Source of the DNA: Pseudomonadota bacterium | Lineage (GTDB): Bacteria; Pseudomonadota; Gammaproteobacteria; Steroidobacterales; Woeseiaceae | Reading direction: 5' to 3' | DNA length: 64,000 nucleotides | NCBI GenBank assembly: GCA_022573655.1 | Contig: JACZTO010000002.1 | Coordinates: forward strand, 1 to 64,000 | Shown: positions 1 to 61,867 of the stretch, piece by piece | Layout of the letters: every line of letters begins with the position of its first letter | Position numbering within the stretch: the stretch's first letter is position 1 | The notes under the pieces: generated by a model | Told to the model about the DNA's origin: nothing | Database searches by the model: none | What the model saw: the letters and a program-made list of their open reading frames with translations, nothing else | Made by a program: the position numbers and the translations under genes

Positions 1-1202
1 AGCGGTCCGATAGTGGTAGCACCTTCCGCCAGCTGAGGATCCCAGGCCAATAGCGGCACCAAGTCGGAAGTAATCCGGCTGCCAAAAAAAGTCTCCCCGC
101 CCAGCAGCGCCGGCTGGTAATCAGCGGCCAGCCGCACCTCCATCGCGGCGAGCGGGTCGCCCAACTCATAGCCCGCTGCGAAGAGTTGCCGCACATCAGG
201 CATCGCCCGCGATTTCGTGTACCACGGGTGCGTAGAAGGGAAACTCGTGCCCAACTGCGTGACTGCAACCTCCAGGTTCTGGCCAGCAGGGGCCTTTGTG
301 ATGAGGCGCGGGGCATACGCGCCCCAGAGTTCCTCTACATCGACGCCGTGACGCTGCTCAGCTCGGACCAAGTTCTCGAAGATGTCATCGTACTCATCGA
401 GTGCAGCCCGCTGTTCTGGGGTGATGATGTAGTCGTCTGGATGCTCGATGATGTCGTTCAGGTGCTGACGGGCCTTCCTCGGGATCTTTGCGCCTGTGCG
501 CACTTCCACGGCGAGAGCATAGCCGCGCTTCTGCTGGCCTACGACACGGCCCAGGAGTGGGTCTAGCTCACCCGTCACCAGACCCAGCGTACTTCGGTGC
601 CGCCCGATCCACTCCCGTGCGGACAGGCGCATCCGGTTACCCTGCCGGGCGACATACACGTCCCTGGCGACGAAGATGTTGCGCACCGTCTTCTGGAGTT
701 CACGGTTCCTGCCCAGGAGCGGCTGGAGGAAATCGTCCAGCTTCGTGAACCAGTTGCCCTCGTAGCGCGGGGCCTCACGAGCCACGACAACATCGAAGTC
801 TTCAATCGGCGCGCAGCCCAAGTGCGTACAGGAACCTTCCACGATCAGATACTCGCGTTTCCGCGAGCGCGTCTCGTTAGCCGCGTAACCCGGTTGCTGT
901 TCAGCATTCTCTGAATGAGGATCTTTGAGGCTATCGTCGTGGTCGCCGAGCCGGCCCAGCATATCCTCCGTTCTACGCAATACGAAAACGAGCCGGCCGC
1001 GCCATAACACACGAATCATCTCACCAGGATCCAGGAAGCCCAGCGGGATTTCAACAGGCGCACCGAGTGCCTGAGCGCGAGCGCTAGGCTGCAAAGACGA
1101 CAAAAATGGCACAGCGACGAAGCCCGCACCGACGGCGCCGGTTACAGCTGTTGCTATTGCGAGAAAATGACGCCTGTTACCATCAAGGTCGTCTTCTGTC
1201 AT
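1..1202 (-). CDS. petA: Chimeric frame: truncated Rieske protein (PetA) joined to phage virion-like sequence, partial
   Basis: The frame starts at an ATG at 1202 and has no stop down to base 1, so it is 3' partial. Residues 1-132 are a typical N-terminus of the bc1-complex Rieske subunit: a twin-arginine RRHFL motif, a hydrophobic anchor, an AVPFLSSLQPSARA segment, and the first cluster-binding box CTHLGC followed by AP. The second box (CPCHGS type) that must follow is absent. From about base 806 leftward the sequence is unrelated to Rieske proteins: it has an EYDDIFENLVRAEQRHG stretch, a YAPR motif and PDVRQLFAAGYELGDP, a style I associate with large phage internal-virion or tape-measure proteins. 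The petB and petC genes expected downstream are not seen. The Rieske part is certain; the family of the second part is an impression. The join may be an assembly chimera. As written, the protein could not hold a 2Fe-2S cluster. Confidence 0.7.
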   Translation of the reverse strand, partial: MTEDDLDGNRRHFLAIATAVTGAVGAGFVAVPFLSSLQPSARAQALGAPVEIPLGFLDPGEMIRVLWRGRLVFVLRRTEDMLGRLGDHDDSLKDPHSENAEQQPGYAANETRSRKREYLIVEGSCTHLGCAPIEDFDVVVAREAPRYEGNWFTKLDDFLQPLLGRNRELQKTVRNIFVARDVYVARQGNRMRLSAREWIGRHRSTLGLVTGELDPLLGRVVGQQKRGYALAVEVRTGAKIPRKARQHLNDIIEHPDDYIITPEQRAALDEYDDIFENLVRAEQRHGVDVEELWGAYAPRLITKAPAGQNLEVAVTQLGTSFPSTHPWYTKSRAMPDVRQLFAAGYELGDPLAAMEVRLAADYQPALLGGETFFGSRITSDLVPLLAWDPQLAEGATTIGP

Positions 1203-1497
1203 CAGGCACTCCCTTACGCCCGGCTGAAGAAAAGGTCTTGTGAACGGTGACCAAGTCCTGCCCGAGAATCGGGTCAGGATCGCCTTACCCCGGCATATAT
1301 TGTCGCGTTCTTTTTACGGCCTCTTCGACAGCGCGTTATTGCTTTGATCGAAACTGGTAGATTTGCAGCAGGCCCGGTTTGCCGTCAGGATGACGATTGC
1401 ACCGGGTTCAGGTGCGGAACCACGGCGCATTATACACGGGGTCGATCGAAATTGGCTAGGTGCGCGAAACTACATTGGAGAAATACAGGAACATCAC

Positions 1498-2568
1498 GTG
1501 GCCGGTCTAAAGTCAGCTCTGATCTTCTTATTACAGTCGATAATCGTCGGTCTGGCGGTCGCTTTTGTCGTCGTGCTCGTGCGCCCGGACCTGATGCCGG
1601 GTATCGCCGGCGGCGGCGAGCCCGCCAGCTACGCTGATGCCGTAGATCTCAGTGCTCATGCCGTAGCCAATATCTATACCAAGCGGCTGGTTCAAGACAG
1701 CGATGCGCCAAATGACAGAGCTCGATTTCGCGTCAATACGAGTTTCGCCTCGGCGGTCATTATCGATCCAGCAGGTTATCTGGTTACCAATTATCACGTC
1801 GTTGCGGAGGCCGCCGAAATCCGTGTACAGCTCAGCGACGGACGAATTGCAGAACCTGTCACCATTGGTGTGGATGCCGAGACAGATCTGGCGTTATTGA
1901 AAGTCGACCTCGGGCCACTACCCGCCATCAAGCTCGGCAGCTCCGCACAACTGCGTATTGGTGACGTGGTACTCGCCATAGGCAATCCATATGGCCTCTC
2001 GACGTCAGTGACGCAGGGCATCGTCAGTGCCACAGGCCGCGGACTGCTAAACCTTGTCACGTTTGAAAATTTCATTCAGACCGATGCGGCTATCAATGCC
2101 GGAAATTCCGGCGGTGCACTGGTCAACAGCCGCGGCGAACTCGTCGGCATTAACACTGCAGTGCTTGCGCAAGACCCGGGAACAGAGGGTATCGGCTTCG
2201 CAATTCCCGTCGACCTGGTTCGCGGCGTAGTTGCACAAATAATGGAAAACGGACGTGTCATTCGTGGCTACATGGGTCTGGTACCCGATGACCTGACTGA
2301 TTCTGAGCGCAGGGCGATGGGCATTGAAGGCAGCGCGGGAATATTGCTCGTCGAGACATTTGACGGCGGTCCTGCCGACGCCGCCAATCTGCGTCCCGGC
2401 GATGTCATCCTCGAGATGAACGGCGAGCCGGTCTATTCGCGAAGACAGGCATTGCTAATCTCAGCGAGTACAAGACCTGGGGACACAGTGGCCATAGTGG
2501 CCCTGCGAGATGGTCAGCGATTTGAGACGGAAGTTACCGCTACGGAGAGGGGTGAAGTTCCCCAATAG
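1498..2568 (+). CDS. degS: DegS/AlgW-type periplasmic serine protease
   Basis: Trypsin-like HtrA-family protease, anchored in the inner membrane and facing the periplasm; the family cleaves the anti-sigma factor RseA in envelope stress. An N-terminal membrane segment (LIFLLQSIIVGLAVAFVVVLV) is followed by the protease domain with His in TNYHVV, Asp in ETDLALLKV and Ser in INAGNSGGALVN, then one PDZ domain at the C-terminus, as in DegS rather than DegP. I chose the GTG at 1498 because it has an AGGA-like site 7 bases upstream and gives 356 residues, the usual DegS length; a longer in-frame start at 1363 adds a tail with no family resemblance. It is divergent from petA, a neighbourhood known from pseudomonads, and convergent with murA across a palindromic repeat. 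Confidence 0.9.
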   Translation: MAGLKSALIFLLQSIIVGLAVAFVVVLVRPDLMPGIAGGGEPASYADAVDLSAHAVANIYTKRLVQDSDAPNDRARFRVNTSFASAVIIDPAGYLVTNYHVVAEAAEIRVQLSDGRIAEPVTIGVDAETDLALLKVDLGPLPAIKLGSSAQLRIGDVVLAIGNPYGLSTSVTQGIVSATGRGLLNLVTFENFIQTDAAINAGNSGGALVNSRGELVGINTAVLAQDPGTEGIGFAIPVDLVRGVVAQIMENGRVIRGYMGLVPDDLTDSERRAMGIEGSAGILLVETFDGGPADAANLRPGDVILEMNGEPVYSRRQALLISASTRPGDTVAIVALRDGQRFETEVTATERGEVPQ

Positions 2569-2638: not shown

Positions 2639-4148
<1,510 letters not shown>

Positions 4149-52489: not shown

Positions 52490-53851
52490 TTGAGACCACA
52501 AATGATCACAAAAACACGAATGACCGTTGCGAGCGTGCTGCTGGCACTGCTGTCGTTGGCTCCCACCCAGGCCGCCTTGCCGCAGAGCGTCAGGGACAAG
52601 CCCGTTACCAGTCTCGCACCGCTGGTCGAAGAGGTTGCCCCAGCCGTCGTCAACATTCGCGTCAGCCAGACCGTCGCCCGCCGCTACCCGTTTGGGGACG
52701 ACGCTTTTCGCCGCTTCTTCAGTTTGCCGGATTCGCGAAGCGGTCCACGGGAGGTCGCCAGCGCAGGCTCAGGAGTCATCGTCGATGCCGAGCGCGGCTA
52801 CATACTGACGAATCATCATGTCGTTGGCGATGCCGATACGATCCGAATATCCCTGATGGATGGCACTATTCTGGACGCCAAATTAGTCGGCTCTGATCCT
52901 GCAACTGATATCGCGGTCATCAAAGTTGAGGCTACTGGCCTGACTGAAATGGCCATTGGTGACTCGACTAACGCGCGTGTCGGTGATTTCGTTATCGCGA
53001 TAGGCAACCCCTTCGGCCTGGGTCACACCGTGACGTCGGGCATCATTAGCGCACTGGGACGTACCGGCATCAGCCGCGATGCATACGAGGACTTCATACA
53101 GACCGACGCATCGATTAATCCCGGCAACTCAGGTGGCGCCCTCGTCAACATGAATGGTGAGCTGATCGGCATTAATTCAGCAATCATCAGCCGATCGGGT
53201 GGCAATGTCGGTATCGGCTTTGCCGTGCCAACCGAAATTGCCAGCTCCATCATGCGCCAGATTCTGGACTTCGGCGAAGTACGCCGCGGTTTGCTGGGCG
53301 TGAATATAACGACCATAGATGCAGAAGCTGCGGAAGCACTGGGCAATGACATCGACAGTGGTGCCCTCATCACGCTTATTCAGGCGGAGTCGGCAGCTGA
53401 GAATGCAGGCTTACAAGTTGGAGACATTATTGTAGCGGTCAATAGCAAGAAGGTAGACGGCGCAGCGGAACTCAGAAACCGGATTGGTTTGCTGCGCTCC
53501 GGCGACGAAATCAGCATCCAATACGTTCGCGACAATGAAACATATTTGACCAGCACTGAGCTCGGTCGGGCACAAGACCAGAAGGTTCTTGGGGAGGAAA
53601 TACACCCCGGGCTGTCGGGCTCGGTATTTGCCCCTGCATCTGCCACCAGCGACGAGGGGGTGGAGATCGACGAGGTTCAAGACGGCAGCCCTGCCGCGCA
53701 GCGCGGCTTGCGCGCTGGTGACCTCATCACACACGTCAATCGGGAACCCGTACGGAGCCTGCAGGACCTCAGAGAGATCGCCGGCAATAAACGTATTTTG
53801 TTCTTGAATGTGCGACGTGGTGATCGGTCACTCATGCTGCAGATTCGCTAA
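52490..53851 (+). CDS. degQ: Periplasmic Do-family serine protease (DegP/DegQ type)
   Basis: Quality-control protease/chaperone of the periplasm. A signal peptide (MTVASVLLALLSLAPTQA) leads to the protease domain with His in LTNHHVVGD, Asp in ATDIAVIKV and Ser in INPGNSGGALVN, then two PDZ domains (about 275-365 and 375-453). 453 residues and a short LA loop favour DegQ over DegP. The start is uncertain: TTG 52490 has GGAG six bases before it, while ATG 52502 lies further on in the same frame. It is 35 bases before slt. Confidence 0.92.
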   Translation: MRPQMITKTRMTVASVLLALLSLAPTQAALPQSVRDKPVTSLAPLVEEVAPAVVNIRVSQTVARRYPFGDDAFRRFFSLPDSRSGPREVASAGSGVIVDAERGYILTNHHVVGDADTIRISLMDGTILDAKLVGSDPATDIAVIKVEATGLTEMAIGDSTNARVGDFVIAIGNPFGLGHTVTSGIISALGRTGISRDAYEDFIQTDASINPGNSGGALVNMNGELIGINSAIISRSGGNVGIGFAVPTEIASSIMRQILDFGEVRRGLLGVNITTIDAEAAEALGNDIDSGALITLIQAESAAENAGLQVGDIIVAVNSKKVDGAAELRNRIGLLRSGDEISIQYVRDNETYLTSTELGRAQDQKVLGEEIHPGLSGSVFAPASATSDEGVEIDEVQDGSPAAQRGLRAGDLITHVNREPVRSLQDLREIAGNKRILFLNVRRGDRSLMLQIR

Positions 53852-61770: not shown

Positions 61771-61867
61771 AGATAGGGGGACAGTGACCCTAACCAGGGG
61801 GACAGTGACCCTAACTGAGAGTTCAGTAGTTTCTGTATTGACAGTTAGGGTCACTGTCCCCCTATCT
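61771..61867. repeat. REPIN-like inverted repeat, family 1, copy 2
   Basis: Outer arms 61771-61794 and 61844-61867 are perfectly complementary; an additional direct copy of the GGGGACAGTGACCC arm lies at 61796-61816. The 21-base core is identical to that at 2571-2591. It fills the gap between the convergent pteridine reductase and S41 protease genes. Confidence 0.85.

Follow-up and report, generated by a model that had tools for sequence, protein, structure and literature searches.

Does the left end of contig C70 record the breakage or refashioning of an essential respiratory gene in a living cell, or was the break made when the genome was assembled? The window, i.e., the whole stretch of 64,000 nucleotides analyzed here, comprises bases 1-64000 of C70, and its start is C70 base 1, a contig end. 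C70 belongs to a bin (G000) of 94 contigs and 2.27 Mb, with a completeness of 80.1% and a contamination of 0.19%. As described in the initial annotation, a minus-strand frame runs without a stop from an ATG at position 1202 to the window edge, over 400 codons. It begins as petA, the gene for the Rieske iron-sulfur subunit of the bc1 complex, and continues as unrelated sequence that had been described as phage virion-like. A prophage-type insertion or rearrangement and a chimeric contig had both been considered, and the chimera had been thought the likelier. The analyses below also lead to the conclusion that the end of C70 is most likely an assembly chimera.

The 5′ part of petA and the place of the join

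The petA 5′ part (789..1202, minus strand; codons 1-138) amounts to the first two thirds of the gene and carries the TAT signal and the N-terminal region expected of PetA. The N-terminus of the frame matched Pfam UCR_Fe-S_N (PF10399) with an E value of 1.9e-12, residues 9-133 matched NCBIfam TIGR01416 with 126.9 bits, above the cut-off of 97.4, and the first cluster box, CTHLGC, starts at residue 125, all of which bears out the normal PetA N-terminus reported earlier. CTHLGC and CPCHG are presumably the cluster-binding motifs of the bc1 Rieske subunit. The second of them and the remainder of PetA are absent from the frame, which is therefore not a two-box PetA, while a second box was found in all 22 translated comparison loci (as CSCHG in one). 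The initial annotation was thus right about the missing second box. Its report that petB and petC do not follow cannot be taken as their loss, because the window edge is the contig end. It should be noted that this frame would be annotated as a Rieske protein that is fused or broken, and that C70, viewed alone, could be misread as bc1-deficient.

Twenty-four relatives of the same genus were found, and the stretches around petA were compared for 23 of them (G022 was left out). The petA 5′ part shared 66-78% protein identity with petA of 23 same-genus genomes, with dN of 0.16-0.25 and saturated dS, and is under strong constraint. Compared with intact copies, its dN values are slightly higher, with overlapping ranges, and there is no clear decay. 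Each of the 24 same-genus genomes had one petA match, except G015, in which a second, distant petA (L032, contig C27 of G015; 44% identity) was found besides the usual copy.

Divergent from petA on C70 lies a gene for a DegS-type serine protease (1363..2568, plus strand; start codon uncertain), recognized by trypsin-like and PDZ domain matches and here assumed to be degS. The next native neighbor is an open reading frame (2639..3844, minus strand) that we take to be murA, with a match near petA in relatives; its presence shows that C70 carries the left arm of the locus, which reads kdsD-caxA-murA-degS-petA 5′. In most same-genus stretches, degS, murA, caxA, and kdsD lie on one side of petA, and petC, sspA, sspB, and gmhA on the other, most of these gene names being our assumption. 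A degS match was found beside petA in 20 of the 23 stretches and a murA match near petA in 16; four of the other seven stop at a contig edge first and three continue without murA. Directly after petA, petB was found in 23 of 23 stretches, and petC followed in 20, the remaining three being cut by contig ends. The gaps in the locus lie at contig ends, plus a few real absences. The degS gene was apparently missing between murA and petA in the sister relatives G011 (L040; no match) and G004 (L030; a match of only 48 residues). We also noticed a second stretch of the window (52997-53176) whose DNA is 70% identical to the degS gene on contig C37, described below, and which is possibly part of another HtrA/Deg-type protease gene.

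The join was mapped by base-by-base comparison with 22 petA loci of the genus, including that on C37 of the same bin. Before the break, 122 of 160 twelve-base blocks agreed in at least 8 bases with the 20 closer loci (mean 8.5, lowest 3), and after it none of 60 did (mean 3.5, highest 7). Because block agreement collapses there, and because the BLAST match between C70 and C37 stops at C70:790, the join, i.e., the end of petA homology, is placed at about 788/789, give or take a few bases (786..791), and lies 788 bases from the contig end. The in-phase switch proposed earlier is therefore real, but its place lies about 18 bases further on than 806/807: similarity to petA of the relatives runs through ...CAPIEDFDV, six codons past 806/807, and the six residues formerly assigned to the foreign part are still PetA. 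The phase itself would be expected to be kept once in three when two coding pieces of the same strand are joined.

Character and source of the tail

Beyond the join lies a foreign coding fragment (the tail; 1..788, minus strand) in phase with petA and open to the contig end. Its 262 codons contain zero stops, and its G+C content at the three codon positions is 69/45/75%, the pattern of a gene, for which reasons we regard it as a real coding fragment in the phase of petA. This pattern is present from the first codons past the join, where each block is offset by one base and the codon-position columns rotate accordingly. We therefore read the tail as part of a gene that was severed at the join; it does not look like the terminus of an element.

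The composition of the tail is foreign to the bin. Its G+C content is 62.9%, compared to 55.5 ± 2.1% in 159 half-overlapping window pieces of equal length, none of which reaches 62.9%, and its tetranucleotide distance exceeds those of all 159 window pieces and of all 145 pieces from parts of C37, C35, and the next C70 stretch. It also lies 2.4-8.5 s.d. off each of the 25 compared loci (3.3 for G007 and 4.7 for G021). A compositional break of the kind expected of a chimera is therefore found at the join, near a contig end. It is by this composition only that the tail is taken to belong to another organism.

The open, in-phase frame across 262 foreign codons would also be expected if the tail were a new C-terminal domain in the host, belonging either to a true fusion protein or to another petA copy that has diverged. 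We consider this the least probable of the readings weighed here, given that the second cluster box is absent, that the composition changes at the join, and that none of 38 other genomes with a petA match (39 searched) showed an extension into the tail; when these 39 relatives were searched with the frame, no match was found past residue 164. A structure prediction for the tail gave a mean pLDDT of 37.

Searches for relatives of the tail found none. The initial annotation had suggested that the residues after the join be searched against phage profiles; a search of the tail, whole and in three pieces, gave no match up to E 10 in PHROGs or, by tblastn, in phage records. Pfam, NCBIfam, PDB sequences, and plasmid records (the latter in protein mode) likewise gave no match. 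Four scans of IMG/VR contigs returned 2, 20, 6, and 7 stretches that fit a peptide pattern, and two scans of genome contigs returned 48 and 142 pattern matches, with zero confirmed in any of them, although these scans were seeded by exact short peptides and distant relatives may escape them. Among 398 genomes of the phylum searched with the tail, its own genome was the sole match and the 397 others gave none; nothing in the rest of the bin resembles bases 1-788. The label "phage virion-like," which included a likeness to tape-measure proteins, is consequently unsupported.

The sole DNA match was one of 30-32 bases to 30 Gordonia phage records (best E 0.02), located in minor-capsid genes and in phase in the one record checked. 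The proteins aligned no better than shuffles (local alignment score 44, against a shuffle mean of 40.6 and reached by 49 of 200 shuffles), and the match was rejected as chance.

An interrupted gene followed by DNA of foreign composition is also what a prophage or transposon inserted in petA would leave. Such an insertion is very unlikely: significant phage or plasmid matches were absent, the tail is coding right up to the join, and the Gordonia phage match stands at shuffle level. The repeats within 1-1300 are two-copy, 12-15 bases long and chance-like, with no repeat pair at the join, and no terminal repeat, att site, integrase, or transposase was seen at the join on the one side of any insert that C70 covers. 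The prophage-type insertion put forward initially accordingly found no support.

The petABC copy on C37 and its mosaic ancestry

An intact petABC elsewhere in the assembly had been proposed as the finding that would remove the physiological puzzle. Contig C37 of the same bin (66.7 kb) starts inside degS and continues through petA, petB, petC, sspA, sspB, and gmhA, the names petB and sspA being our own from sequence, and its PetA frame is whole, with 197 aa from its ATG. A petABC copy is therefore present, but the 5′ part of its petA belongs to another lineage, as described below, and C37 is no simple proof of an unbroken native copy. More generally, a copy that looks intact on another contig of a bin can be mosaic too.

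Where C70 and C37 overlap, in degS and the petA 5′ part, their DNA identity is 71%, roughly what separates species within the genus. Trees were restricted to genomes with the required genes in the stretch, with 21 of 25 rows for DegS+PetA, 21 for PetB+PetC+SspA, 18 for MurA+CaxA+KdsD, and 14, without G007, for PetC+SspA+SspB+GmhA+LpoA; G022 and the distant second petA of G015 were omitted. In the DegS+PetA tree, C37 grouped with G007/G021 (96/89) and C70 with G006 and the G016 and G023 groups (86/96). Constraining C37 to group with C70 and the G016 group was rejected (AU p 0.0027), and a recent duplication of degS-petA that gave rise to the C37 and C70 copies was rejected as well, as their sister relation had an AU p of 0.0032. 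In the PetB+PetC+SspA tree, C37 grouped with G023/G024 (99/97), not as sister to the G016 group, and its grouping with G007/G021 was rejected (p 0.008). In the PetC+SspA+SspB+GmhA+LpoA tree, C37 was sister to the G016 group (95/96), and C37 with G021 had an AU p of 0.0001; C70 took the same place, sister to the G016 group (95/93), in the MurA+CaxA+KdsD tree. All of these AU p values are somewhat generous, as the groups were chosen after a quick tree had been viewed.

Two further observations concern the same switch. A 3-residue N-terminal insert in PetA was found in C37 and in 7 of 22 readable relatives (G001, G003, G007, G012, G013, G020, and G021; the N-terminus of G019, the 23rd, is cut off), and was absent from C70 and 15 relatives, including 12 of 12 of the G016 and G023 groups. 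In a sliding comparison by 150-base blocks, G007 was nearest in 7 of 9 blocks before C37:1350, with an eighth a rounded tie with G021, and after it neither G007 nor G021 was nearest in 19 blocks (one rounded tie with G021).

These comparisons show that the left end of C37 (L025 1-1500; degS-petA 5′) stems from a lineage of the genus other than that of the remaining contig. The switch in ancestry lies in or near petA, not sharply placed and close to the break in C70, which corresponds to about C37:1515, while C37 leaves G007/G021 after about C37:1350. The later genes of C37 place it in the part of the genus to which the host belongs, apart from G007/G021, with an exact place that differs between the two trees. 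The tree of the right part of C37 makes it less likely that the contig comes wholly from another species, although a sister species would still be compatible with that tree.

Two families of dispersed repeats were also observed in the bin. Between degS and murA (2566-2641), and again at 61777-61861 of the window, lies a palindromic, REP-like repeat with the core GGGGACAGTGACC; a search of the bin for the 13-base pattern GGGGACAGTSACC gave 76 occurrences, distributed over 21 contigs, compared to 2 for a reversed control. A second family (TGTAGGAGCG...) was noticed on C37 (L025 4316-4376); in the bin its pattern matched 25 times, across 15 contigs, and the reversed control once. An attempt to split the bin into two organisms by these repeats failed: the two families have 6 contigs in common and therefore do not mark two organisms.

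Origin of the join and comparison with known systems

An assembly chimera at the contig end is favored because the join lies 788 bases from that end, the bin is fragmented, the tail is compositionally foreign, and C37 is mosaic. The judgment made earlier from C70 alone, that a chimera is the likelier reading, is supported by these observations and by the petABC genes on C37 and the change in ancestry there. The native petA has probably been split between the two contigs, each of which carries foreign sequence beyond the break, and the native gene is best read as the petA 5′ half of C70 plus the petA 3′ end of C37. The assembly would have broken petA just past the first cluster box; the C70 side would then have been extended by 788 bases into unrelated coding DNA of another organism in the sample, and the C37 side (petA 3′ end, petB, petC, and sspA) by about 1.4-1.5 kb into the degS-petA region of a species that is a cousin of the host. 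We infer that the joins were made in assembly rather than in the cell, and neither a Rieske-X fusion protein nor loss of the bc1 complex follows from the join.

Several observations run against a chimera. One real insertion would likewise be expected to leave two foreign extensions that meet near the same point of a gene, the searches did not find the source of the tail, and PetB+PetC+SspA place C37 with G023/G024 rather than as sister to the G016 group. In addition, C70 and C37 have no exact stretch longer than 12 bases in common around the break, and the two were therefore not confused via a shared k-mer.

The single insertion that could account for both odd contig ends is a one-sided one by homology-facilitated illegitimate recombination, in which DNA of a G007/G021-like cousin entered by a homologous crossover in petA at one end and an illegitimate join at the other; we regard this as unlikely. 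The chromosome would then read, as a correspondingly doubtful arrangement, murA, degS, and the native petA 5′ part, followed at the join by foreign DNA and, further on, by the cousin's degS and petA 5′ part joined to the native petA 3′ part, petB, and petC. The hybrid PetA of C37 might in that improbable case keep the bc1 complex working, with the native 5′ half stranded and fused in phase to foreign coding DNA. The whole PetA frame of C37 and the same place of the right part of C37 and of C70 in their trees are consistent with such an event. The composition of the tail, unlike DNA of the genus and of G007 and G021 in particular, argues against it, as do the lack of matches past residue 164 in relatives and to bases 1-788 in the rest of the bin, and the lack of clear decay in the petA 5′ part of C70. 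If it were true, the locus would be a natural snapshot of interspecies one-sided homologous integration within a genus, in an essential respiratory operon.

The native petA part of C70 is like the PetA proteins of TIGR01416 in residues 1-138, with the TAT signal, CTHLGC, and a divergent degS-type neighbor as in most relatives, and differs in that the second box and C-terminus are replaced by unrelated sequence and the contig ends before any petB or petC. Recombination of the kind just discussed was described for three species with natural competence and, at low frequency, for E. coli (PMC3240628). One homologous and one non-homologous join, as in its products, would give the C70/C37 arrangement, which is known, however, from two separate contig ends and not from continuous inserted DNA. 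For the preferred reading, i.e., an assembly chimera, the nearest parallel is found in the chimeric contigs of short-read metagenomes. According to PMC7299287, metagenome assemblers make such contigs along graph paths common to related species, or when sequencing errors link graphs. The end of C70 resembles them in holding sequence of more than one genome in one contig, and differs from them in that its foreign side was found in no relative of the genus.
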